A program made the translations under genes and the position numbers. Of a stretch of 41,069 bases of DNA, positions 2,045 to 28,622 are shown piece by piece. Position 1 is the first letter of the stretch, and each line of letters begins with the position of its first letter. Below the pieces are notes generated by a model, which did no database searches, was not told the DNA's origin, and saw only the letters and a program-made list of their open reading frames with translations. The DNA is from Natrialba aegyptia DSM 13077 (lineage in GTDB: Archaea; Halobacteriota; Halobacteria; Halobacteriales; Natrialbaceae): the NCBI RefSeq assembly GCF_000337535.1, contig NZ_AOIP01000054.1:1-41069 (forward strand), given 5' to 3'.

Positions 2045-3459
2045 ACTCAGCTATCGCTCGCTGCTGTGGACAACCATCGCCGTCGATGAATCAAGCGAGC
2101 TCGCGCACGAACGCGCCGTGTTGTACGTCCTCGATCAGCGAGGGGCGGTGTGGGTTCGGGTCGATGGCCGCCGCAAGCAACAGCTCCAGTAAGTTCTTCT
2201 CCGGCGGGTCGTACCCATGGTACTGCGCGACCCGCTGGAGAATCAAGCCGCCGTACCGACTGAACACGCGAGACCACCGCAGCCGAGGGATACGGGACGG
2301 ATCATCGCCGTCGTCACCCGCTGCGTCTCCGTCGACGATCTCTCGGAGGAGATCGAGCAGCACGCGGCTCACCACCAGCGAAATCAGCGCCACTAAGATC
2401 AGCGCTTCCACCGCAATCGAATTGCTCGTCGGAATCTGGTCGAGGTTGTATGTCGATTTCAGCTCCTTGAACAGCAGTTCGACTTCCCAGCGCGCTCGAT
2501 ATAGTTGGGCGATATCGGACGCACTGTAGTCCGCTACCGGCAGGTTTGTCACGTAGAAGTGGTACTTTTCGGCTTCCTCGTTCCAGACCCCGACGACGCG
2601 GAAGGTACGGATCGCGCCGCTACGTGAGCCGTTGTACGAACGACGGCGGAACGACACCTCAGCACGGACATCGATCACGTCTCGATGAAGATCATCGAGA
2701 ACTGCATGCAGCTTCTCGCCCGTCAGGGAGACCGTGTTCCCGCGCCAGTCTCTGAGTTCCTCAACGATCCGCGGATTCGCGTTCGGCTTGAGCCGTGTGA
2801 CGAACCAGCCCTTGTTGGCATCGATCAGGTCCATCGTCCGATAGTCGAAAAAGCCCTGATCGTACAGCAGGAGCGACCCGGTGAGCCACTGGCCGGTCGA
2901 AAGCCGGGTGCTCTCGTGGGTGCGCGCGTCAGTAATCGAGAACTGCGTCGGCAACCCGGTCGAGACGGACTCAACGACGTGGAGTTTCGCCCCTGCGTGG
3001 TCGTCACCGTAACCGGGAAACGATTCGATTAGCGACTGATACAATGCAACGACGGTCGTATCCGGGATGAGAACGTCGCGGAAGCGGGCGAACCGGCCGT
3101 CGAGGCAGTCAGTGGACTGCGAGAGATCTCCGAGAGCGTGGTCGAGGACCTCACGGAGAAACGCAGTGAGCGATTCCGCGAACCACCCGTGAAACGGGGC
3201 ATACGTCAGGCTGAGTTCACCGCCCACACACTGGAGGTAGCTCTGACGGAATGCCTCTATCGAGCGGTCCCCGCCGACGGCGAAGCCGAGCGTGAGCGCC
3301 CAGAATAGCGCGGCTGCATCGAGCTTCCGCCGTCGCTCGACGAGGCCAGTCGCACGAGCCAGCGCGCGCAACCGCTCGGCGGGAAAGGCTCTCGTGAGCC
3401 GGTGTTCGATCACCGAATCCGGTGGACGGTAGACCATTGTCGTCGGACCGTAGCTGAGT
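2045..3459 (-). mobile_element. IS4-family (ISH8-like) insertion sequence
   Basis: The transposase gene is framed by ACTCAGCTA at 2045-2053 and its inverse TAGCTGAGT at 3451-3459, with weaker matching further inward. The implied length of about 1.4 kb fits ISH8-type elements. No clear direct repeat flanks the two ends (AACGATCTTCG versus AGAATTACGC), so the ends may be imprecise or the locus rearranged after insertion. The right end falls 5 bp from the stop codon of the neighbouring gene at 3464. Confidence 0.7.
2091..3437 (-). CDS. IS4-family transposase (ISH8 group)
   Basis: DDE transposase of 448 residues. Catalytic candidates are D126 (IPDTTVV), D193 (LYDQGFFDY) and E320 inside the IS4 signature Y313-x2-R316-x3-E320-x6-K327 (YRARWEVELLFKELK). 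The start at 3437 (MVYRPPDSVIEH) was chosen because it matches the N-terminus I recall for ISH8-type transposases and lies inside the inverted repeats; the frame is open 18 codons further upstream across the IS end. No disabling mutation is visible, so the element could be active. Confidence 0.92.
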   Translation of the reverse strand: MVYRPPDSVIEHRLTRAFPAERLRALARATGLVERRRKLDAAALFWALTLGFAVGGDRSIEAFRQSYLQCVGGELSLTYAPFHGWFAESLTAFLREVLDHALGDLSQSTDCLDGRFARFRDVLIPDTTVVALYQSLIESFPGYGDDHAGAKLHVVESVSTGLPTQFSITDARTHESTRLSTGQWLTGSLLLYDQGFFDYRTMDLIDANKGWFVTRLKPNANPRIVEELRDWRGNTVSLTGEKLHAVLDDLHRDVIDVRAEVSFRRRSYNGSRSGAIRTFRVVGVWNEEAEKYHFYVTNLPVADYSASDIAQLYRARWEVELLFKELKSTYNLDQIPTSNSIAVEALILVALISLVVSRVLLDLLREIVDGDAAGDDGDDPSRIPRLRWSRVFSRYGGLILQRVAQYHGYDPPEKNLLELLLAAAIDPNPHRPSLIEDVQHGAFVRELA

Positions 3460-3463
3460 AGAA

Positions 3464-4021
3464 TTACGCTCGCCAGTCGTCGTGGAGCCACTGCTCGGTC
3501 TGCCGTCTGCTCATATCGTCATTCCATATGATGTCGCGCTCGAACGTGATGACTTCGTTCTCTGGACCGATGATCACCCACGCATACGTTCCCGTGGGAT
3601 CGCGGCATTTCACCTTCATCCCACTGATGACTACCTCGTGGCCGTCAGTCGTGATCGTCTCGTCGTGTGGTTCGATCCATAGGACATCGAGCGTCCCGTC
3701 GAGGTCAGGCGCAGCCTCTGCGATGAACTCATCGGCGACATCTCGTGCGGTCCCTCTATCCGGAAGATCGCCGCCGGCAAGCCGCGCCTGCATTCGCGTC
3801 ACGCCCAAGAGGCGCGATGTCTCCGCATCGGCGACGAAACTGACGTGTTCGCCACCGAAACCGATGTTGTGACCGTCTGCCCGCTCGTGTCGAAAGACCC
3901 AGACGGGACGCTCATCCTGCGTCACCCGGCTGGCGTCTACGAGGGAGTAGTCCGTCGGCACCGAGACGAAGGTGGTTGCTACTTCGAGTGCTTCGGTATC
4001 GTACGATGGTTGCTGTGTCAT
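3464..4021 (-). CDS. Conserved-looking hypothetical protein (185 aa)
   Basis: Soluble acidic protein starting MTQQPSYDTEAL at 4021. The frame is open further upstream but there it overlaps the end of the MFS gene, so the internal ATG 38 nt after the MFS stop is preferred. It has alternating beta-strand-like segments (GHEVVISGMKVKCRD, GTYAWVIIGPENEVITF) and no signal peptide or membrane helix. Gene order suggests an operon with the upstream MFS exporter. Its stop codon lies 5 bp from the IS4 element end, so its last residues may have been altered by the insertion. I do not recognise the family. Confidence 0.7.
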   Translation of the reverse strand: MTQQPSYDTEALEVATTFVSVPTDYSLVDASRVTQDERPVWVFRHERADGHNIGFGGEHVSFVADAETSRLLGVTRMQARLAGGDLPDRGTARDVADEFIAEAAPDLDGTLDVLWIEPHDETITTDGHEVVISGMKVKCRDPTGTYAWVIIGPENEVITFERDIIWNDDMSRRQTEQWLHDDWRA

Positions 4022-7643: not shown

Positions 7644-7937
7644 TCATCCCCTGATGGAGTACCCGTTTTCTTCGAGGAGTTCTCGGACGCGCTCCTCGTG
7701 GTCGCCCTGGAGTTCGATGTGTCCTTCTTTGACGGTGCCTCCAGTTCCGAGTGCAGATTTCAGCTCCGAAGCGAGCGACTCGCGATCGGTGTCACCTTCG
7801 AATCCTTCGATGATGACCATTGTCTTGCCATACCGACGCTCTTCACTTCGGACGGTCAGCTGTTCTGTCGCACGGTCGAGGTCAGCGAGCGGATCCTCGG
7901 GCACATCGAGATCGTCGAGCGGATCGTCGTCTGGCAC
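7644..7937 (-). CDS. SUI1/eIF1-like translation factor
   Basis: Small protein of about 97 residues related to eIF1/SUI1 (YciH). The signatures RRYGKTMVIIEGF, LGTGGTVKEGHIELQGD and the ending VRELLEENGYSI match the family, which acts in start-codon selection on the small ribosomal subunit. A GTG at 7937, shortly after the stop of the HxlR gene upstream (7954) and preceded by GGTGAG, is the preferred start. An ATG at 8012 would overlap the HxlR gene by 59 bp. It is probably co-transcribed with that regulator, which is unusual company for a translation factor. The standard eIF1 of the organism is probably elsewhere. Confidence 0.8.
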   Translation of the reverse strand: MPDDDPLDDLDVPEDPLADLDRATEQLTVRSEERRYGKTMVIIEGFEGDTDRESLASELKSALGTGGTVKEGHIELQGDHEERVRELLEENGYSIRG

Positions 7938-7953
7938 GAGTGGCTCACCGAAT

Positions 7954-8307
7954 TTACAGCCAGTCCTCTCCCCAGTCGTCGAGTGCGTCGAACACTGGAC
8001 AGAGGGCATCACCCTTCTCAGTCAGCGTGTAATAACTCGCGACCGGGGATTCGAACTCTTTGTGATTGTCGACGAATCCCTCCGCTTCCAAGTCGTCGAG
8101 CACACGCGAGAGTGTGTACGAACTGGCCCCGGTTGAGCGCTTGAGTTCGTTGAACCGCTTTTCACCGTCTCGCAGGTCGTTGAGGACGATGAGCTTCCAC
8201 TTCGCCCCCATCTCCTCGACAGCCCCGACGACGTTGCAGACATCTGCATTCCGCTGTTCGACGTCGGATTCGTGGTCGGAGTCGGCCGATTGGGGTTGGG
8301 TCGCCAT
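7954..8307 (-). CDS. HxlR-family redox-type regulator (copy 1, intact)
   Basis: Winged-helix repressor of 117 residues. The HxlR core is visible as C24NVVGAVEEMGAKWKLIVL, then RFNELKRSTGASSYTLSRVLDDL and the wing SYYTLTEKGDAL. The single N-terminal cysteine just before the first helix corresponds in position to the redox cysteine of Bacillus YodB and CatR, and a second Cys lies near the C-terminus (LCPVF). It is divergent from an SDR gene, sharing one central TATA element. I infer that it senses electrophiles such as quinones or aldehydes and represses the adjacent detoxification genes. Confidence 0.9.
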   Translation of the reverse strand: MATQPQSADSDHESDVEQRNADVCNVVGAVEEMGAKWKLIVLNDLRDGEKRFNELKRSTGASSYTLSRVLDDLEAEGFVDNHKEFESPVASYYTLTEKGDALCPVFDALDDWGEDWL

Positions 8308-8308
8308 T

Positions 8309-8363
8309 ACCTAGTTACACATTTATTGCCTGAGCTATAAATAGGTTTGGAGTCAAACTAGGT
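8309..8363. promoter_or_regulatory. Symmetric divergent promoter, copy 1
   Basis: CTATAAATAGG (8335-8345) is a near-symmetric TATA element about 30 nt from both flanking start codons (8307 minus, 8370 plus). It is flanked by inverted half-sites ACCTAGTT (8309-8316) and AACTAGGT (8356-8363). A dimeric regulator could silence both directions. Nearly the same block recurs at 9806-9860. Confidence 0.7.
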
Positions 8364-8369
8364 ATTGTA

Positions 8370-8492
8370 ATGGAACTACAAAACCCGACGGTACTCGTAA
8401 CTGGAGCTACCGCCAACATTGGCCCGTACGTGACCGACCTGCCCGTTAAGCAGAAGGCTGATGTCGTCGGCCTCGCGGCTGATTCCGAATGA
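8370..8492 (+). pseudogene. N-terminal fragment of an SDR gene (duplicate of 9867 gene)
   Basis: Forty codons beginning MELQNPTVLVTGAT, almost the same start as the intact SDR at 9867, and ending in TGA that overlaps the ATG of the next SDR (ATGA at 8489-8492). The fragment keeps the promoter and start but lacks the catalytic part. It may now act only as a translated leader for the following gene. Confidence 0.7.
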
Positions 8493-9247
8493 ACGGTATA
8501 GATGGCGGTGTCGCGTTGGTTTCGGGCGCAGCCTCGGGCATTGGACGCGCGACTGCACAGCGGTTCGCGGAAGAGGGCGCGAGCGTCGTCGCCGCCGATA
8601 TCGACGTGGAGGGTGGCGAGGAAACCGTCTCTCAGATCGAGTCCGAGGGCGGCGAGGCGACGTTTGTCGAGACAGACGTAACCAATGAAAGCGACCTCGC
8701 CGCAGGGGTCGAAGCGGCCGTCGATACGTACGGCAGCCTCGATTTTGCGTTCAACAACGCCGGCATCGAAGGTGACAAGGTCAGTTTTTCTGACCAGGAC
8801 AACGCGAACTGGAACCGGGTCCTCGATATCAACCTCAACGGCGTGTTCTTCGCGATGCGCGAGGAAATTCCGGCCATGCTGGAAAGCGGCGGTGGAGCCA
8901 TCGTGAACACGTCCTCGATCGCCGGTATTCTCGGATTCCCCAACCTGAGTCCGTACGTCGCCAGCAAACACGGCGTCGTCGGGTTGACGAAGACGGCGGC
9001 CGTCGAATTCAGTAGCGATGGCCTCCGGGTGAACGCGGTGCTTCCAGGGGTCATCGAGACCCCCATGGTCGCCCGTTCGGGCGAACAGGACCCGGAAGCG
9101 ACGGAGCAAACGATCGCCGGAATCCCCGCTAGCCGACTCGGTCAGCCAGAGGAGATCGCCTCCGCGGTAGTCTGGCTCTGTTCCGAGGACGCGTCGTACG
9201 TGACCGGGCAGCCACTCCCCGTCGACGGTGGATACTCGATCCAGTAA
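8489..9247 (+). CDS. Short-chain dehydrogenase/reductase (SDR), 252 aa
   Basis: Classical cytosolic SDR with Rossmann motif SGAASGIG (12-19), NNAG (89-92), catalytic S142/S143, Y156 and K160, and the ending YVTGQPLPVDGGYS. The residues ADID after strand 2 (D37) favour NAD+ over NADP+. Length and motifs fit the glucose/3-oxoacyl reductase-like group; the substrate is unknown. It is translationally coupled (ATGA) to the truncated SDR leader and would be driven by the divergent HxlR promoter, so it appears to have replaced the original SDR in this copy of the duplicated unit. Confidence 0.92.
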   Translation: MNGIDGGVALVSGAASGIGRATAQRFAEEGASVVAADIDVEGGEETVSQIESEGGEATFVETDVTNESDLAAGVEAAVDTYGSLDFAFNNAGIEGDKVSFSDQDNANWNRVLDINLNGVFFAMREEIPAMLESGGGAIVNTSSIAGILGFPNLSPYVASKHGVVGLTKTAAVEFSSDGLRVNAVLPGVIETPMVARSGEQDPEATEQTIAGIPASRLGQPEEIASAVVWLCSEDASYVTGQPLPVDGGYSIQ

Positions 9248-9289
9248 CTCCGAGTGGGGGGTTCCCAGGACTCCAGACACGGCCGAGAT

Positions 9290-9440
9290 AGGGGTAACGC
9301 CACTTGGCATGGCCAGCAGTCCACCTGATCGATGCTGTGGGGCTGCCCGTGTCCGAAAGTGCTGGAAGTCCGATGAGTAAACTGCAAACCTGAAACTCCC
9401 ACCGCTCGGGATCCCTGCGGCTTCAGGCCTAGGAGGACAA
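9290..9440 (+). mobile_element. Possible degenerate IS605/TnpB 3' end
   Basis: The segment ends in CCCACCGCTCGGGATCCC, an imperfect hairpin, then AGGAGGACAA. This is similar in layout to the right end proposed at 6650-6689 (GGGAATTCC, hairpin, AGGAGGTCAA). The hairpin arms are partly unpaired and no tnpB frame remains. It lies between the two copies of the duplicated HxlR/SDR unit, so it may mark the rearrangement junction. Confidence 0.35.
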
Positions 9441-9450
9441 TTCTCTCAGT

Positions 9451-9804
9451 TCAGAGCCAGTCCTCTCCCCACACATCGAGCGACTCGAACACCGGACAAA
9501 GGGCGTCTCCCTTCTCAGTCAGCGTGTAATAACTCGCGACCGGCGATTCGAACTCCTTCCGGTTCTCGATGAACGCCGAATTTTCCAAGTTGTCGAGCAC
9601 CCGTGAGAGCGCTTAGGAACTCGCGCCCGTCGACCGCTTGAGTTCGTTGAACCGCTTCTCGCCGTCTCGCAGGTCGTTGAGGACGATGAGCTTCCACTTC
9701 GATCCGATCTCTTCGACTGATCCCACGGGGTTACATACATCGGTATTTTTCTGTTCAACCGCAGTGTCTTCGTGAATTTCGGCCGATGGTGGTTGGGTTG
9801 CCAT
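9451..9804 (-). pseudogene. HxlR-family regulator copy 2, nonsense mutant
   Basis: Same length (354 bp) and strongly similar to the HxlR gene at 7954-8307, starting MATQPPSAE and keeping VCNPVGSVEEIGSKWKL and RFNELKRSTGASS. The next codon, TAC (Tyr) in copy 1, is TAA here (minus strand, 9613-9615), cutting the protein to 63 residues inside the recognition region. The downstream frame is otherwise intact through LDVWGEDWL. If not a sequencing error, the neighbouring SDR-DoxX-CatE operon has lost its local repressor and depends on copy 1 or is constitutive. Confidence 0.85.
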
Positions 9805-9805
9805 T

Positions 9806-9860
9806 ACTTGGTCACACAGTTATTGCCTGAGCTATAAATAGGTTTGAGAACAAACTAGGT
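9806..9860. promoter_or_regulatory. Symmetric divergent promoter, copy 2
   Basis: Nearly identical to the block at 8309-8363: TATA CTATAAATAGG at 9832-9842 and half-site AACTAGGT at 9853-9860. The regulator-side half-site is degraded (ACTTGGTC at 9806-9813 instead of ACCTAGTT). The SDR ATG at 9867 is about 30 nt from the TATA centre, so the transcript is probably leaderless. Confidence 0.7.
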
Positions 9861-9866
9861 ATTGTA

Positions 9867-10568
9867 ATGGAACTACAAAATTCGACGGTGCTCGTGACCG
9901 GAGCCACCGGCAATATGGGACCGTACGTGACGGATGCACTCGTTGACAGCGGCGCCGACGTGGTCGGCACCTACGTCACCGAAACCGAGAAAGAAGCTGT
10001 CGAGGAGAGCGCTGAGTACGCTGACGCGGTGTCGTACCACCAGGTCGATCTGACTGATCAGGCGGCAGCCGAAGCCTTCGCTGAGACTGTCGCCGACGAA
10101 CACGGGTCGGTCGATCATATCGTCGGCCTCGCCGGCGGGTTCTCGATGGGCAGCGTCAGCGATACCGACGGTGAAGCATTCCAGGCTGCACTGAATCTCC
10201 ACGCAACGACCGCGTTCCTGACTGTCAAGGCCTTCGCGGATTACCTCAGTGAGCAGAGCGGTGTCGTCTTGTTCAGCTCCGACCGCGCAATCGACCCCAT
10301 TGGTGGCACGCTCGCGTACGACGTCGGTAAGGGCGCGGTCCGGACGCTGACCGAGTCACTCGATGTTGACCTCGATGCCCGTGTCAACGCCGTCGCTCCA
10401 TTCCTCATCGACGTACCGGGGAACCGCGAGGCGATGCCCGACGCCGACTTCTCGGAGTGGACGGCCCCCGAAGCTATCGTCGACGAAGTACTCCACCTGC
10501 TCTCGAACCAGGGTGTGAGGGGGCAGATCGTCCAGATGACCGGTGGCCAACCGGAGATGGCAGACTAA
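9867..10568 (+). CDS. SDR-family oxidoreductase, 233 aa, first gene of SDR-DoxX-CatE operon
   Basis: Rossmann-fold reductase with TGATGNMG (11-18), LAGG (88-91, replacing NNAG), S137/S138, Y151 and K155. Position 37 after strand 2 is not acidic (GTYVTET), so NADPH is possible. The stop codon overlaps the ATG of the next gene (TAATG), a sign of tight coupling. The substrate is not known; by context it may reduce electrophilic carbonyls or quinones. It is divergent from the broken HxlR copy 2 and its start matches the fragment at 8370. Confidence 0.9.
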   Translation: MELQNSTVLVTGATGNMGPYVTDALVDSGADVVGTYVTETEKEAVEESAEYADAVSYHQVDLTDQAAAEAFAETVADEHGSVDHIVGLAGGFSMGSVSDTDGEAFQAALNLHATTAFLTVKAFADYLSEQSGVVLFSSDRAIDPIGGTLAYDVGKGAVRTLTESLDVDLDARVNAVAPFLIDVPGNREAMPDADFSEWTAPEAIVDEVLHLLSNQGVRGQIVQMTGGQPEMAD

Positions 10569-10987
10569 TGGCGCTGGAAACTGCAGCTGGTGGTCTCGCC
10601 TTTCTGGTCGGCCGCCTCGTCTTCGGTATCCTGCTCGGGTTCATGGGCCTGAGTCACTTCACGGGGCTCGATGGGATGAGTGGCTACGCCCACGCCAAGG
10701 GCGTGCCCGCCCCACGACTGGCCGTCATCGTGTCCGGCCTCATGCTCATCGTGGGCGGACTTGCCATCGCGCTCGGCGTCTACCCGCTCCTCGGCGCAAT
10801 AGCGATTACGCTGTTCTTCCTCGTGGTGACGCCGGTGATGCACGACTTCTGGACGGTCGACGATCCCGAACAGCGTCAGTCAGAGATGACGGACTTCCTG
10901 AAGAACGCGACGCTCTTCGGTGCTGCGCTCGTCGTCGCTGCAATCAGTGGCACCGCATGGCCGTACGCTCTCAACATCGGCCTTTAG
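10568..10987 (+). CDS. DoxX-family membrane protein (CatD-like)
   Basis: Four-helix membrane protein of 139 residues. DoxX features include the first helix with RLVFGILLGFMGLSHF, the GLDGMSGYAHAKGVPAP loop, and HDFW before a short acidic segment. In Bacillus, DoxX-like CatD and MhqP are co-expressed with dioxygenases CatE and MhqO for quinone and catechol resistance. Here the next gene is a CatE-like dioxygenase, 10 nt away. ATG 10568 overlaps the SDR stop; an upstream ATG in frame lies inside the SDR gene and is rejected. Confidence 0.9.
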   Translation: MALETAAGGLAFLVGRLVFGILLGFMGLSHFTGLDGMSGYAHAKGVPAPRLAVIVSGLMLIVGGLAIALGVYPLLGAIAITLFFLVVTPVMHDFWTVDDPEQRQSEMTDFLKNATLFGAALVVAAISGTAWPYALNIGL

Positions 10988-10997
10988 ACACAGAAGA

Positions 10998-11852
10998 ATG
11001 ACCACGCAATCGACGCCAACAAATTCAGACACGCTTCCGCAGGGGACACGTATCGGCCGGACCGCGCTTCGCGTCGGTGACCTCGAGGAGATGACCGGGT
11101 TCTACCGGGACGTCGTTGGCCTCAGTGTACTCCAAACAACCGATACGACCTCGATTCTCGGGGTTGACGACACACCACTCCTCGTTCTGGAGGGAACTGA
11201 AGATACCCTCCAGCGTCACCGATCAGCGGCCGGGCTGTATCACAACGCGTTCAGAGTACCTTCGCGTGCGGCTCTCGGTGACGCACTGGCTCGGATACGG
11301 GACCAGTGGCAACTCGGTGGTGCCTCCGATCACTGGGTCAGCGAGGCGCTGTATCTCACTGACCCGGAAGGGAACGGTATTGAGATCTACCGGGACTACC
11401 CCCGTGAGGACTGGCCAATCGCCGACGACGGTCGTGTTCGGATCAGCACCGAGCCGCTCGACCTCGCCAGTATCGAAGCTGCTGCCACAGGTGGTAGTCA
11501 GGCCCCGTCGGGAACGGACGTCGGGCACGTCCACCTCGAGGTCTCTTCGCTCGACGCGTTCAGGGACTTCTACGTGGATACGCTCGGATTCGAGGTGCAG
11601 ACGACCGTGCCCGCCGCATCCTTCGTCTCGGCGGGTGGATATCACCACCACATCGGAGCGAATACGTGGAATCACCGATCAAAGCCAGTCGGCGGCAGAG
11701 GACTGTCCTGGTTCGAGGTCGTCCTTCCAGGAACAGAGGTACTCAACGTGATCCGAGAGCGAATCTCCGACAGTCAGTATACGATCACTGCGAGGGATGA
11801 AGGAATAGCTGTTACTGGGCCAGATGAGATCGAAGTTCGACTCCGAGGGTGA
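10998..11852 (+). CDS. CatE-like extradiol (catechol 2,3-) dioxygenase, VOC superfamily
   Basis: Protein of 284 residues with two glyoxalase/VOC domains (about 17-135 and 174-280). The first has VSEALYLTDPEGNGIEIY; the second has GHVHLEVSSLDAF (H177/H179), FVSAGGYHHHIGANTW (H216-218) and WFEVVLPG (E240), giving candidate Fe(II) ligands. Length and these motifs match Bacillus CatE closely by memory. The expected reaction is ring opening of catechol-type compounds. Third gene of the SDR-DoxX operon; start ATG 10998, 10 nt after the DoxX stop. Confidence 0.9.
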   Translation: MTTQSTPTNSDTLPQGTRIGRTALRVGDLEEMTGFYRDVVGLSVLQTTDTTSILGVDDTPLLVLEGTEDTLQRHRSAAGLYHNAFRVPSRAALGDALARIRDQWQLGGASDHWVSEALYLTDPEGNGIEIYRDYPREDWPIADDGRVRISTEPLDLASIEAAATGGSQAPSGTDVGHVHLEVSSLDAFRDFYVDTLGFEVQTTVPAASFVSAGGYHHHIGANTWNHRSKPVGGRGLSWFEVVLPGTEVLNVIRERISDSQYTITARDEGIAVTGPDEIEVRLRG

Positions 11853-11890
11853 AACCCTCACACCACTACCCAAGCTGTGTGAGTACACCT

Positions 11891-11955
11891 CAACACTTCC
11901 ATATCTGGTAGTTCCTACCGCACTTCTAACGTGGTAGCTTTTCACTTTCTGTCCC
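11891..11955 (+). promoter_or_regulatory. Shared promoter block, copy A
   Basis: Order of elements: ACTTCCATATCTGGTAG, palindrome GGTAG-TTC-CTACC (11907-11919), CTTCTAACGTGGTAGC, then TTTTCACTT and CCGTAGT. Copies B (12773-12836) and C (14444-14508) keep the same order and spacing. Copy A lies 50 nt upstream of the HalOD1 gene at 12005. Confidence 0.75.
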
Positions 11956-12004: not shown

Positions 12005-12304
12005 ATGACTGACCATCCCCCCGACGAGAACGGGAACGACATCTCCGGACCGCCACATAATGATGCTTACGTCTACGAAATCCGGGCGGATGAATCACAC
12101 AGCCAGGCTGTCGTCCGGGCTGTCGCCTCCGTTACAAACACGTCCGGAACGAACCTTGAACTGCTATACGAGGCCATTGATCCAGAACACCTTGATGGCC
12201 TGTTCGATGAGAACATCTTACCCGAGAGTACAGTTGTATTTCACTATAACGGCTGCCAGGTGAGCGTGACCCCAGATACAGTTCTCGTTTCCGAACGAAA
12301 TTAA
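12005..12304 (+). CDS. HalOD1 output-domain protein (99 aa)
   Basis: Small acidic protein with the haloarchaeal HalOD1 pattern: SQAVVRAVASVTN, LELLYEAIDPEHLDGLF and VVFHYNGCQVSVTPDTVLV. HalOD1 domains are found alone or behind sensor domains in haloarchaea and are thought to be signalling outputs; the biochemical role is unknown. The gene sits downstream of shared promoter block A, so it may be a member of the same regulon as the pirin and EF-1alpha genes. It converges with the regulator at 12350. Confidence 0.8.
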   Translation: MTDHPPDENGNDISGPPHNDAYVYEIRADESHSQAVVRAVASVTNTSGTNLELLYEAIDPEHLDGLFDENILPESTVVFHYNGCQVSVTPDTVLVSERN

Positions 12305-12349: not shown

Positions 12350-12685
12350 TTAGTCTGAGCAGTAGCGATCCATCCACTCATCCAGTTCTCGGAACATCGG
12401 TTCGAGGTCGTTTAACATCTGTGTCATCTCGTATTCCACGCGGGGAGGGATCTCGTCGTATTGTGTGCGTTCCAAGAATCCGGCCTCGACAAGTTCATCA
12501 AGCCGCCGAGACAGCGTATTCGGGGAGATATCGAGCTCATCTTCGAGTTCGCCAAACCGAATCGGTTCATCGTCGTCCAAGACGAATTCCTTGAGGATCG
12601 CCAGCGTATGAGCCTTCCCAAGCAAGGAAAAAACCGTACTCATCCTATGGTTATGTTGCGTTTCCGCCCGGTCAGATTTGCTCAT
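12350..12685 (-). CDS. HxlR/winged-helix regulator, paralogue of the 5581 gene
   Basis: 111-residue DNA-binding protein. Winged helix: FSLLGKAHTLAILKEF, RFGELEDELDISPNTLSRRL (recognition helix), then the wing RTQYDEIPPRVEYEMTQML; C-terminal helix FRELDEWMDRY. An 8-bp inverted repeat abuts its start codon and is probably an autoregulatory operator. It lies between two copies of the shared promoter block (A and B), so it is the best local candidate for the regulator of that block; this is inference from position and GTAGT/ACTAC half-site resemblance. Confidence 0.88.
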   Translation of the reverse strand: MSKSDRAETQHNHRMSTVFSLLGKAHTLAILKEFVLDDDEPIRFGELEDELDISPNTLSRRLDELVEAGFLERTQYDEIPPRVEYEMTQMLNDLEPMFRELDEWMDRYCSD

Positions 12686-12711: not shown

Positions 12712-12772
12712 GTATGTTGTGAGAAATCGAGTCTACATTCCCATACCCAAACAGTGCGAGTATGCTCCAATA

Positions 12773-12836
12773 CTTCCATATTTGGTAGTTTCTACCGTAC
12801 TTCTAACTTGGTAGCTTTCAACTTCCAAAGCCGTAT
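12773..12836 (+). promoter_or_regulatory. Shared promoter block, copy B
   Basis: Contains ACTTCCATATTTGGTAG, palindrome GGTAG-TTT-CTACC (12784-12796), CTTCTAACTTGGTAGC and TTTCAACTT. It ends about 15 nt before the pirin-family start codon at 12851. Confidence 0.75.
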
Positions 12837-12850
12837 TATAGGATGAAAAC

Positions 12851-13603
12851 ATGCAAGTAAGCAATGATACCGCGCTCTACAAGGCTCCTCGCACAGATCT
12901 CGGGCAGAATCAGGGGATGTTCAGAATGCATACCAACTACCCTGGTCGACTCCTCCCGGACCACGACGACCACGGCTACGGACCGCTCGCTCGCGTTGAC
13001 GAGGCAATCTTGGATCCGGACACGTTCGTTGGTATGCACCCGCACCAAAACGACGAAATTGTCTCGTACGTCCCGACCGGCGTGATGCGTCACCGAGACC
13101 GGGCAGGCAACGAGTTAGTCATGGACTCTGAACACCTGATGGTGATGAACGCCGGGCGGGAGTTCTGGCACGAGGAGCAGACGCTCGCGGATGACCCGCA
13201 ACTGCGGCTTCTCCAGATATTTGTCCGACCGCACACGACTGATCTCGAACCGAACATCCAGCAGGGACCAGTTCCGGATTCGGTCACCAATGAGTGGCGA
13301 CACCTCTTCGGTCCGGAAGAGTCCGACGCACCGTTCTACGTGCGCAACGACGTCAACTTCTACGACGTCCACCTCGACGAGGGAACGAGTGTCGAACTGC
13401 CCTCGATAACGGGATGGGATACGTACTTCTACGTGTTCGAAGGCGCAGTCGAGGCCAACGAGACGACCTTCGGCCGGACAGAACAGGGGTTACTCGTCGG
13501 CGCGGAGGAACTGACAGTCACCGCCCAAGAAGAAACGTTGCTCGTTGCTTTCCTCATCAACCCCGACGCACCGCTTACGTACCAGGGGACCATCGGCCGG
13601 TAA
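12851..13603 (+). CDS. Pirin-family cupin protein (250 aa)
   Basis: Bicupin of the pirin/YhaK-YhhW type. The metal motif G-M-H63-P-H65-x3-E69 lies in cupin 1, followed by LMVMNAGREFWHEEQ, where the last ligand histidine is expected. Cupin 2 spans about 155-250. Bacterial relatives include quercetin 2,3-dioxygenases and stress-sensing proteins; pirins are often induced by oxidative or electrophile stress. It is preceded by promoter block B and followed after 49 nt by a broken MhqO-like gene, with which it probably formed an operon. Confidence 0.9.
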   Translation: MQVSNDTALYKAPRTDLGQNQGMFRMHTNYPGRLLPDHDDHGYGPLARVDEAILDPDTFVGMHPHQNDEIVSYVPTGVMRHRDRAGNELVMDSEHLMVMNAGREFWHEEQTLADDPQLRLLQIFVRPHTTDLEPNIQQGPVPDSVTNEWRHLFGPEESDAPFYVRNDVNFYDVHLDEGTSVELPSITGWDTYFYVFEGAVEANETTFGRTEQGLLVGAEELTVTAQEETLLVAFLINPDAPLTYQGTIGR

Positions 13604-13652
13604 ATAGCTGCCATCGGTGACACCACGCAACACAAACGCAAAACAACAATCA

Positions 13653-14226
13653 ATGGTAACAGACACGCCCGGGATCCATCATATCACGGGCATCGTTCGG
13701 GATGCCCAGCGAAATCTCGACTTCTACACGGGAGTCCTCGGACTACGCCTCGTGAAACAGACGGTGAACTTCAATGAGATATTTATGCGCCATCTCTTCT
13801 ATGGCGACGAAACCGGCACGCCTGGCACGAGTTTGACGTTCTTCCTGTATCCCGCAGAAGAAGACGGACGCATCGGGCAACCACATATCACTACCGCTGC
13901 GCTCGTCGTTCCTCCCGGGTCTCTCGAGTACTGGACTGACCGACTCACCGCTCACGACGTTGAGTTCGTCGGCCCGTTCGAGCGATTCGACGAGACCGTC
14001 CTCCGATTCACCGACCCGGACGGGACGCAGCTCGAGCTCGTCACCGGCGATTCGCCCGTCAAACCGTGGCAGGACGGACCGATTCCGTCCCAGGACGCGG
14101 TTCGAGGAATTCACGTGTGACGCTCCGTTCGGTGAGCACCTTCGTCACCGCAAGTGTTCTCGACACGCTGGGCTTCGAGCTGGTAGACCAGGAAGGGGAT
14201 CGAGTTCGGCATCAGGCACTCCTTTA
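13653..14226 (+). pseudogene. Frameshifted, truncated MhqO-like ring-cleaving dioxygenase
   Basis: The first VOC domain is intact ([43 protein letters not shown]) and typical of MhqO/ring-cleaving glyoxalase proteins, which are about 310 residues long. After GIHV a TGA appears at 14118-14120. A one-base deletion there accounts for it, because the +1 frame continues with [10 protein letters not shown] and [18 protein letters not shown] until TAG near 14226. The rest of the second domain is missing, and the sequence joins an SDR tail. Confidence 0.85.
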
Positions 14227-14343
14227 GGTCGTAAGGCACAACCGGAGGAAATTGCCAGCTCGGTTACATACCTCCTCTCCGAGGACGCGAGCTATGTGAA
14301 TGGCCATTCGTTGCTTGTGGACGGTGGATATACTGCGGTATAA
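14223..14343 (+). pseudogene. C-terminal fragment of an SDR gene
   Basis: About 38 codons ending an [23 protein letters not shown], then [18 protein letters not shown] and TAA. The Rossmann fold and active site are absent. The breakpoint with the MhqO-like remnant is at about 14215-14230. It is similar to, but not the same as, the tails of the SDR genes at 8489 and 20150. Confidence 0.8.
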
Positions 14344-14443
14344 AACACGCACCGACAACACTATTCCTTATCTAGTCGGGTTCTCTCCTCCGAGAAATAC
14401 AGTCGATGATACGAAATACATCCAGTGGTAAACCTTCGCAGTC

Positions 14444-14508
14444 ACTTCCACACCCGGTAGTTACTACTTCACTTCTAACGTGGTAGCTTTTAACTTCTAA
14501 AAGCGTAG
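14444..14508 (+). promoter_or_regulatory. Shared promoter block, copy C
   Basis: Contains ACTTCCACACCCGGTAG, palindrome-like GGTAG-TTA-CTACT (14456-14468), CTTCTAACGTGGTAGC, TTTTAACTT and GCGTAGT. It ends 12 nt before the GTG start of the EF-1alpha-like gene. The arrangement is the same as in copies A and B. Confidence 0.75.
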
Positions 14509-14519
14509 TTAGCGGTACA

Positions 14520-15791
14520 GTGAGTACTGACATACCCCACCAGAACCTGGCTATCATCGGCCACGTTGACCACGGCAAGAGCACACTCGTGGGGAGACTT
14601 CTCTATGAGACGGGGAGCGTTCCCGAGCACGTCATCGAACAACACCGCGAGGAAGCTGAGGAAAAAGGCAAGGGCGGCTTCGAGTTCGCCTACGTCATGG
14701 ATAATCTTGCCGAGGAGCGTGAGCGAGGTGTCACGATAGACATCGCCCACCAGGAGTTCTCGACGGAGGCGTACGACTTTACTATCGTCGATACACCGGG
14801 ACACCGAGACTTTGTCAAGAATATGATCACGGGCGCGTCCCAGGCTGATCACGCTGTTCTCGTCGTCGCTGCTGACGATGGCGTCGCGCCCCAGACCCAG
14901 GAACACGTCTTCTTGGCCCGTACCCTGGGAATTGACGAACTTATTGTCGCTGTCAACAAGATGGACCTCGTCGACTACGAGGAAGCGAAGTACAAGGAGG
15001 TCGTCGAGGAGGTAACCCAGTTGCTACAGCAAGTTCAGTTCGACACCGACGATGCCTCGTTCATCCCCGTATCCGCCTTCGAGGGTGACAACGTTGCCGA
15101 TACCTCCGAAAACACGAACTGGTACGGCGGTGAGACGCTGCTGGAGGCGCTGAACGACTTACCTGAACCGGAACCGCCGTCGGATGCGCCCTTTCGACTG
15201 CCGATCCAGGATGTCTACACAATCGACGGCATCGGTACGGTCCCGGTCGGCCGCGTCGAGACGGGCGTCCTCAACATCGGCGACAATGTCTCGTTCCAGC
15301 CATCGGATGTCAGTGGCGAAGTGAAGACCATCGAGATGCACCACGAAGAAGTTCCGAAGGCCGATCCCGGTGACAACGTCGGGTTCAACGTTCGCGGTAT
15401 CGGCAAGGACGACATCCGCCGAGGCGACGTCGTCGGTCCTGCTGACGACCCGCCAACGGTCGCCGAGACCTTCCAGGCACAGATCGTCGTTATGCAGCAC
15501 CCAAGCGTGATTACTGCCGGATACACGCCGGTTCTCCACGCACACACGGCGCAGGTCGCCGGCACCATCGAATCCATCGACCAGAAGATCGATCCCTCCT
15601 CCGGCGAAGTTGCCGAAGAGGAACCTGACTTTATCAAATCCGGCGATGCTGCAGTCGTCACGATCCGACCACAGAAGCCCCTCAGCATCGAACCATCGAG
15701 CGAAATCTCCGAGCTAGGCAGCTTCGCTATCCGCGATATGGGCCAGACAATTGCAGCCGGCAAGGTTCTTGGAGTCATCGAGCGAGACTAA
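14520..15791 (+). CDS. Elongation factor 1-alpha paralogue (aEF1A-like GTPase)
   Basis: Full-length translational GTPase of 423 residues that should deliver aminoacyl-tRNA to the ribosome. Motifs: G1 GHVDHGKS (14-21), switch I region [10 protein letters not shown]3 DTPGH (91-95), G4 NKMD (146-149), followed by domains 2 and 3 with [20 protein letters not shown] and [23 protein letters not shown]. It is close to standard haloarchaeal EF-1alpha but has DTPGH where I recall DCPGH. The gene is separated from any ribosomal or translation operon and starts with GTG right after promoter block C. I infer an inducible second copy; the housekeeping gene is expected elsewhere. Confidence 0.93.
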
Positions 15792-27550: not shown

Positions 27551-28622
27551 TGAGGGTGTCATAGAACTCTTCTCACACCGTGATGATCGTGCTTCCCGGA
27601 TTGTCTCCGCGCTCGTAGTTGGTGATAACGACGACGAGACGAAGACACAGAGCGAGGAAGACCTGCGCTCGTGCGTGGACGCGGCCTCAGGCGTGCGTTC
27701 GCCCAGAGGCCGCAGTCCTTCACTGATTCGTTGGTTCGTTCCACTCCAGTGCGGCGATTGTACGTTTCGTCTAGCGTTGATTGCTTCAGCTGAACGCCCT
27801 CGCTATGTTTCGTGGTGCGGTCTTCGACCCTGTACTCGATGTCTTTCGGGTCGTCGGTATTTCGTGCATTGTACGGTGCGACTGGCACGACCCCTGCAGC
27901 CAGCAGGTGGTCGTGCCAGTCAAGCGTGTCGTAGGCACTATCACCGACCATCCAGATCGGCTTGGCGACGGCGAGCGCGTCACGTGTGACGCGCATCGCC
28001 GTCTCTTCTGGCGCTTGTTTGCTCTCGGTGAACTCGGCTGCAATTGGGATCTTTTGTCCGGTCGAAACGATCGTACAGCCGTAGCCGTAGTAGTACTCTT
28101 CGTCGGTTGGATCGTAGCATTTCGACGCATCTTGGTCGGCGGGCATCGCCCTCACGTCGGTTGAATCGATGCAGTAGGTCAAGTCGAGCAGGCCGCGGCG
28201 GCCGGCCTGCTCGACGAGGTGGTCGAAGATGTCGTCGACGACGTGTTCAAGATCGGTAAGGAATCGATCGACCGCGTCTCTCGACGGCGGTCGATCGAAG
28301 CCACAGCTCAGCCAAACAACCGTGTTCCGAAGCTCTCGTTCAACAGGACGAATGCCGTAGATGTCGTGATAGTAGCAGTGGAGGAAGCCACGCATCATCT
28401 CTGGTGGCTCGTGCTCTCGTGTTCGCCCCGTCTCCGCCGGGGCGAACACGTCGAACTCTTCAAGAAATCCAAAGGAGAGATGCTCAAACAACGCTAACGT
28501 CTCGGTCTCCGCGACATTGAAAAACGTCTCCACCGAAGGATCATCTTGCAGGGTCGCTGAACTCATTCCACCTCAGCGTTCACCCTGCTCTTTGGTGTGG
28601 TAACCGTTCTATGACACCCTCA
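27551..28622 (-). mobile_element. 1072-bp insertion sequence with 17-bp perfect inverted repeats
   Basis: TGAGGGTGTCATAGAAC at 27551-27567 and its exact inverse at 28606-28622; similarity continues inward (AAC-n2-TT-n2-CACACC on both sides). It contains one DDE transposase gene. No target duplication is visible (CTG outside the left end, TATA outside the right). It truncates a PadR gene at its left end. Confidence 0.88.
27573..28566 (-). pseudogene. DDE transposase, frameshifted near the C-terminus
   Basis: Starts MSSATLQDDPSVETFF. The DDE core is visible in DLTYCIDSTDVRAM, IWMVGDSAYDTLDWHDHLL and RTGVERTNESVKDCGL. After DCGL the protein-like reading moves by one base (an extra T near 27711) to GRTHA, an in-frame TGA, then GRVHARAQVFLALCLRLVVV and ITNYERGDNPGSTIITV with stop at 27573-27575. 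The two lesions probably inactivate it. It belongs to an IS4/IS5-like haloarchaeal group; I cannot name the element. Confidence 0.8.

Follow-up and report, generated by a model that had tools for sequence, protein, structure and literature searches.

Among the closest described relatives of the locus analyzed here is the catDE operon of Bacillus subtilis with its regulators CatR/YodB (PMC6212828), in which an HxlR/DUF24 repressor with an N-terminal cysteine position governs an operon whose last gene is VOC dioxygenase-like. Both traits recur in the haloarchaeal units of this work. However, these units differ from catDE in their divergent 62-bp archaeal promoter, in a first gene that is either a short-chain dehydrogenase (SDR) or a short candidate relay ORF, in a DoxX gene at the second position, and in a VOC product that falls below the catechol dioxygenase cut-offs. 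With respect to translation, haloarchaeal ribosomes load mainly on leaderless starts; in the overlapping gene pairs tested in Haloferax volcanii, the downstream gene was strictly dependent on translation of its upstream neighbor, and internal SD motifs supported no de novo initiation (PMC6728339). Since leaderless loading is dominant and an internal SD is insufficient de novo, the first ORF of such an operon would not be simply deletable. The published pairs share ATGA or TGATG overlaps and the use of an SD for reinitiation with the units described below, but they consist of ordinary genes, whereas here the upstream ORF is a stub without a conserved peptide. For mycobacteria, short ORFs that merely deliver ribosomes have been proposed (PMC12548453). 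These leaderless short ORFs likewise come first at the mRNA start, overlap the next gene at -1 or -4 and encode an apparently irrelevant peptide; in contrast, the putative relays of this work are haloarchaeal, tied to one repressor family and partly derived from an enzyme gene eroded in frame.

The window, a stretch of 41,069 nucleotides from a Natrialba aegyptia DSM 13077 contig, contains two HxlR genes, each divergent from an SDR start (Table 1). The sequence-only reading had reported two regulators of identical length, one of them with a TAA codon at 9613-9615, SDR starts MELQNP and MELQNS and a distance of about 1.5 kb between the units. All of these were confirmed, with MELQNP at 8370, MELQNS at 9867 and an offset of 1497 bp between two units of the same orientation. 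The explanation that we favor, and hold to be fairly probable as a whole, combines a recombination mosaic, a relay ORF and HxlR1 acting on both promoters.

Table 1. Features of the window and two tandem loci used for comparison (positions refer to the window unless a locus is named)
Feature	Position	Strand	Description
HxlR1	7954..8307	-	Intact winged-helix repressor, 117 aa, 354 bp; PF01638 E 3.9e-20
P1	8308..8369	.	62-bp divergent operator/promoter between HxlR1 and the 40-codon ORF
40-codon ORF, probable relay	8370..8492	+	34 codons of SDR N-terminus, then unrelated codons
SDRa	8489..9247	+	Putatively captured short-chain dehydrogenase, 'glucose 1-dehydrogenase' subfamily NF005559
IS200/IS605 TnpB right-end remnant	9265..9437	+	omegaRNA-like, sot0042; no adjoining tnpB
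HxlR2	9451..9804	-	354 bp; full-length ORF except TAA at codon 64 (9613-9615)
P2	9805..9866	.	62-bp divergent promoter between HxlR2 and SDRb
SDRb	9867..10568	+	Full-length SDR, 233 aa, first ORF of unit 2; PF13561/PF00106
DoxX-family membrane protein	10568..10987	+	PF07681 E 4.2e-11; 96% to Halopenitus
Two-domain VOC protein	10998..11852	+	Glyoxalase/extradiol dioxygenase-like; PF00903 E 3.4e-16
Tandem HxlR units, G152	L137 4122-7573		Downstream regulator broken, candidate relay stub before DoxX
Tandem HxlR units, Halogranum amylolyticum	L040 3588-7497		Downstream regulator broken, candidate relay stub before DoxX

Homology of the two units, one of them with an inactivated regulator, was supported. 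HxlR1 belongs to the HxlR family by its PF01638 score (71.9 bits vs a curated cut-off of 20.8), and HxlR2 matches the same model only in two separate halves (28.2 and 31.2 bits). At the DNA level, the two genes are 79.4% identical over 354 bp, the repeat covers 300 nt at 81%, and the units match each other at E 1e-109 in a search within the genome, which is far beyond chance; a third relative (71%) sits on another contig of the genome. The 73 nucleotide differences between HxlR1 and HxlR2 are distributed as 15/11/47 over codon positions 1/2/3, and this accumulation at third positions indicates that both evolved as functional genes until recently. Together with dN/dS values of 0.09-0.19, within the range of the family, it rules out a long-standing decay of HxlR2.

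On the minus strand, codon 64 reads TAA in HxlR2 and TAC in HxlR1; the predicted product of HxlR2 has 63 aa and lacks the recognition helix, wing and C-terminal helix. A sequencing error at this codon, which would leave both regulators working, is compatible with a draft assembly and with a gene that is otherwise open and retains its third-position bias and a family-like dN/dS, but we give it little credence. The adjoining codon carries T65A, at a position occupied by T in all 26 other homologues compared, V26P hits a further conserved position, and the downstream regulator is broken independently in two other tandems. Because codon 65, invariant elsewhere, is altered as well, the site looks truly decayed and the nonsense codon is probably genuine rather than one miscalled base.

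The shared orientation, the identical 62-bp spacing, the 1497-bp offset and the complementary losses (SDR in copy 1, regulator in copy 2) would all be expected from a local tandem duplication of the HxlR/SDR unit followed by reciprocal loss, as originally proposed. Comparison with Halopenitus malekzadehii makes this scenario improbable. There, a single collinear unit is found (glycine transporter-SUI1-HxlR-SDR-DoxX-VOC-HxlR3), and the window contains about 1.5 kb more than this layout. Protein identities to H. malekzadehii are 98% for the glycine transporter, 89% for SUI1, 98% for HxlR1, 89% for SDRb, 96% for DoxX, 93% for VOC and 98% for HxlR3; overall, HxlR1 and its flank are 92-98% Halopenitus-like. 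In the tree, the sister of HxlR1 is the Halopenitus regulator (99/99) rather than HxlR2, which falls elsewhere among plasmid and chromosome homologues with an unsupported placement. Similarly, dS equals 0.79 between HxlR1 and HxlR2 vs 0.08 between HxlR1 and its Halopenitus counterpart. The two copies are not mutual closest relatives, as local tandem duplicates would be; in addition, the two halves of unit 2 differ in ancestry, and the copies are separated by SDRa and a transposon remnant.

The positions of Halopenitus-private bases delimit the replaced segment. Copy 1 shares 15 of 17 such bases up to 8365 and none of five from 8420; copy 2 shares 8 of 41 over 9450-10,474, compared with 18/130, 6/118 and 1/116 in control sequences, and 53 of 72 from 10,579. 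As these sites drop out and then return, the resident SDR appears to have been replaced by a block of other ancestry, and the segment of ~8400-10,540 is by this measure foreign, with an ancestry different from that of its flanks. Sites shared between 10,005 and 10,509 make its right-hand breakpoint imprecise. SDRb, whose stop overlaps the following start (TAATG), is mostly of foreign ancestry. For the 40-codon ORF, too, the pattern suggests a foreign allele and not a resident one in decay, because its first 23 codons differ from Halopenitus mainly at synonymous positions. On these comparisons, the locus is a product of recombination between diverged units, which replaces the duplication-and-decay account.

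Specifically, an HxlR-controlled detoxification operon (HxlR | SDR-DoxX-VOC) would have become a mosaic when recombination close to the start and close to the end of the SDR put a foreign block in place of the resident gene. The block would comprise the captured SDRa, the TnpB-element remnant and the HxlR2-promoter-SDR portion of another unit, and the outcome would be two promoters with one intact repressor, HxlR1. Units of the HxlR/SDR type are common on haloarchaeal plasmids, and some genomes carry two to four; homologous recombination between such units would offer an easy route, the exact course being our reconstruction. Alternatively, the pair may be old, and Halopenitus may have collapsed to a single unit by direct-repeat recombination. 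A collapse at the promoter would indeed leave HxlR1 beside a complete SDR and an unchanged set of downstream genes, the arrangement of H. malekzadehii (L035), but the SDR there should then match SDRb as closely as DoxX and VOC match their counterparts (93-96%); it reaches 89% and shares few private sites, and the same two-unit pair was found in no other genome searched, so that we regard the collapse as quite unlikely. Vertical inheritance within the genus was rejected, as the pair is absent from all six congeneric genomes, one of which carries an HxlR/VOC version (76%) whose leader has 24 codons. A viral origin was likewise rejected, since neither SDRa nor HxlR1 had a relative in IMG/VR.

Within the putative foreign block, SDRa scores 257.5 bits on NF005559 (cut-off 215), which assigns it to this subfamily, and has 91% DNA identity to a plasmid gene of Halomicrobium urmianum over 8486-9248 only. 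The adjacent segment 9265-9437 resembles the omegaRNA of IS200/IS605 TnpB elements (sot0042, RF02656; sotRNA is omegaRNA, PMC12558985) in sequence and position class. Unlike such loci, it has no tnpB and scores 23.2 bits (E 0.0023) on RF02656, below the gathering threshold of 88; homologous repeats score 46.3 and 37.9 bits. In other haloarchaea it is a dispersed multicopy repeat at ~80%, no further copy was found within this genome, and the segment is probably a relic. The idea that the TnpB element had mobilized SDRa as a single unit was rejected: no left end or tnpB was recognized, SDRa homology ends at the ends of the gene, and the repeat occurs elsewhere without SDRa. For these reasons, we claim no mechanism for the arrival of SDRa. 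Two transposase-like ORFs, both on the minus strand (2091-3491 and 27559-28566), would suit a region of mobile or plasmid-like character. A 1.6-kb segment with a pirin-like gene (12845-14442) breaks the otherwise collinear arrangement with the H. malekzadehii locus.

P1 has inverted arms ACCTAGTT (8309-8316) and AACTAGGT (8356-8363) and a TATA element at 8335-8343, centered 31 bp from the ATG at 8370. This spacing is compatible with a transcript beginning at the start codon of the 40-codon ORF, and the P1 mRNA is predicted from it to be nearly leaderless. P1 and P2 are identical at 54 of 62 positions, including the TATA element (9832-9840 in P2) and the SDR-side arm (9853-9860). The HxlR-side arm of P2 differs from that of P1, although it lies within the family range and represents the commoner family form; promoter length and core are kept across 25 units. 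Of the two nearly identical, symmetric promoters described previously, near identity holds for both and symmetry for copy 1, whereas copy 2 retains a single intact arm, that on the SDR side.

Of the SDR features, the 40-codon ORF keeps only TGATANIG; it has no Pfam match and lacks a complete Rossmann fold with a Ser-Tyr-Lys site. It ends in ATGA on the SDRa start at 8489 (overlap -4), and no separate initiation site is evident for SDRa. The length of the ORF and its ATGA fusion to SDRa stand as first described, whereas its treatment as a mere fragment does not, since it agrees with a class of short coupled ORFs that is widespread at this site. By analogy with that class, the ORF is probably a leaderless translational relay. 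We infer from the sequence a succession of leaderless transcription, relay translation and reinitiation: the first 34 SDR codons of copy 1 would persist within the relay ORF, the mRNA is predicted to begin at its ATG, where ribosomes would load, and these would terminate at the ATGA and then reinitiate on SDRa. The ORF fits the relay slot by its position, predicted leaderless start and ATGA. It has no SD motif, and no other genome searched contains its junction with SDRa; the ATGA and analogy are thus what supports coupling in the window.

The same two properties are also expected if the ORF is inert debris, SDRa being expressed from its own signals or untranslated and the ATGA having arisen by luck; moreover, the SDRa start itself reads ATGA, so that a random frame yields the overlap in one case of three. 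We consider debris unlikely, although it deserves some weight, given that 56 of 62 comparable units have a coupled short ORF at the same position, against zero in control frames, and that SDR erosion is in frame in at least five separate cases.

Of 391 Halobacteria genomes, 87 contain the operator-plus-start pattern, whereas the reversed control gave no occurrence; 112 distinct units were collected. The 233-aa SDR comes first in 21 of them and a short ORF in most others. In 62 haloarchaeal units, the operator is followed by a short first ORF and the gene behind it was identified; the candidate start nearest the leader end was taken if several existed, and units within one genus are not independent. 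In 56 of these units, the first ORF ends within -7 to +2 nt of the next start (44 at -1 and 10 at -4), compared with no such endings in either other frame. The first ORF therefore stops on the next start in a fixed frame. An SD core of at least 7 nt is present in 30 of the 56 coupled leaders (0.3% expected from shuffling), and in most the core GGAGGTGA lies at the leader end. The encoded peptides, in contrast, appear nearly unconstrained: in 19 distinct 22-codon leaders the differences are distributed as 919/988/1044 over the three codon positions, and dN/dS equals 0.59 for these leaders vs 0.08 for the coupled DoxX. Leader-peptide attenuation was ruled out for the 22-codon class, as the peptide is not conserved.

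A subset of leaders derives from the SDR, shrunk in frame with both ends kept, to 54 codons in G052, 33 in both units of G032 and 72 in G008. Halogranum (54 codons) and G152 (37 codons) have further in-frame remnants, as does G371 (65 codons) on weaker evidence. About seven codons pass straight into a DoxX-type ORF in three genomes. In SDR-derived leaders the SD core comes from the C-terminal codons PEV(E/A) of the SDR, which may be why this end is kept. A sister group has the operator GGTTCG..CGAAC, the start ATGAAACCA and leaders of typically 22-30 codons with unrelated sequence. In Salinigranum salinum (L044 3649-4050), a 45-codon MELANQS ORF occupies the operator start and the real SDR (MKLANQ) follows 352 nt further along, which resembles a copied or displaced start region. 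We lean slightly toward a general view in which the HxlR and DoxX/VOC regulon class opens with a hypervariable leaderless mini-ORF whose sole task would be the loading and transfer of ribosomes. One branch would have the slot filled by an SDR repeatedly eroded in frame to a mini-ORF, and in the window the slot would have been put to new use in the capture of an unrelated dehydrogenase, leaving two promoters under one surviving repressor. No description of these leaders was found in openly accessible papers, which cover the literature incompletely.

The suggestion that one regulator may control both units gained plausibility from the TATA element and SDR-side arm shared by P1 and P2 and from the recognition-helix stretch FNELKRSTGASSYTLSR, which is identical in HxlR1 and almost the entire family. 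A further line of support is the recurrent loss of the downstream regulator in tandem units. In all three independent tandems (the window, G152 and Halogranum) the upstream regulator is kept and the downstream one is lost, being truncated or wrecked in G152 and H. amylolyticum; a broken regulator thus occurs in 3/3 tandems vs 3/42 other units (Fisher P 0.0014), a comparison that rests on the three known tandems. Given these shared sites, the common recognition segment and the recurrent loss, control of both units by HxlR1 is the natural reading, and HxlR1 would plausibly act on the adjoining P1 and in trans on P2.

HxlR1 resembles HypR, YodB and RrpB in sequence, with matches to the RrpB/RrpA NCBIfam models only below cut-off. 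Its Cys24 aligns with the redox cysteine Cys14 of HypR (4a5m alignment) and is present in every HxlR homologue covering that position. The VOC gene, likely starting at ATG 10998, encodes a product with weak similarity to catechol 2,3-dioxygenase, below cut-off, and a search by sequence found no solved relative. By analogy with catDE, we infer a role of the operon in electrophile, quinone or catechol detoxification. If read as proposed, the units are natural cases of an enzyme gene reduced to the minimal piece needed for translation and offer a test bed for termination-reinitiation. They also warn that annotation may overlook relay stubs or take them for the debris of pseudogenes, and suggest that regulator loss recurs once units turn tandem.

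The 65-kb contig that contains the window (G000:C53) carries five of the eight HxlR-family genes found in the genome, as well as a SUI1-like gene (7644-7940) and an EF-1alpha-like ORF (14520-15791). A promoter-like element, ACTTCCAyAy.TGGTAGTT.CTAC...ACTTCTAAC.TGGTAGCTTT, is present in three copies (11887-11949, 12760-12820 and 14443-14500), located upstream of genes starting at 12005, 12851 (pirin-like) and 14520 (EF-1alpha-like). It possibly marks another small regulon, that of HxlR3 (12350-12685).
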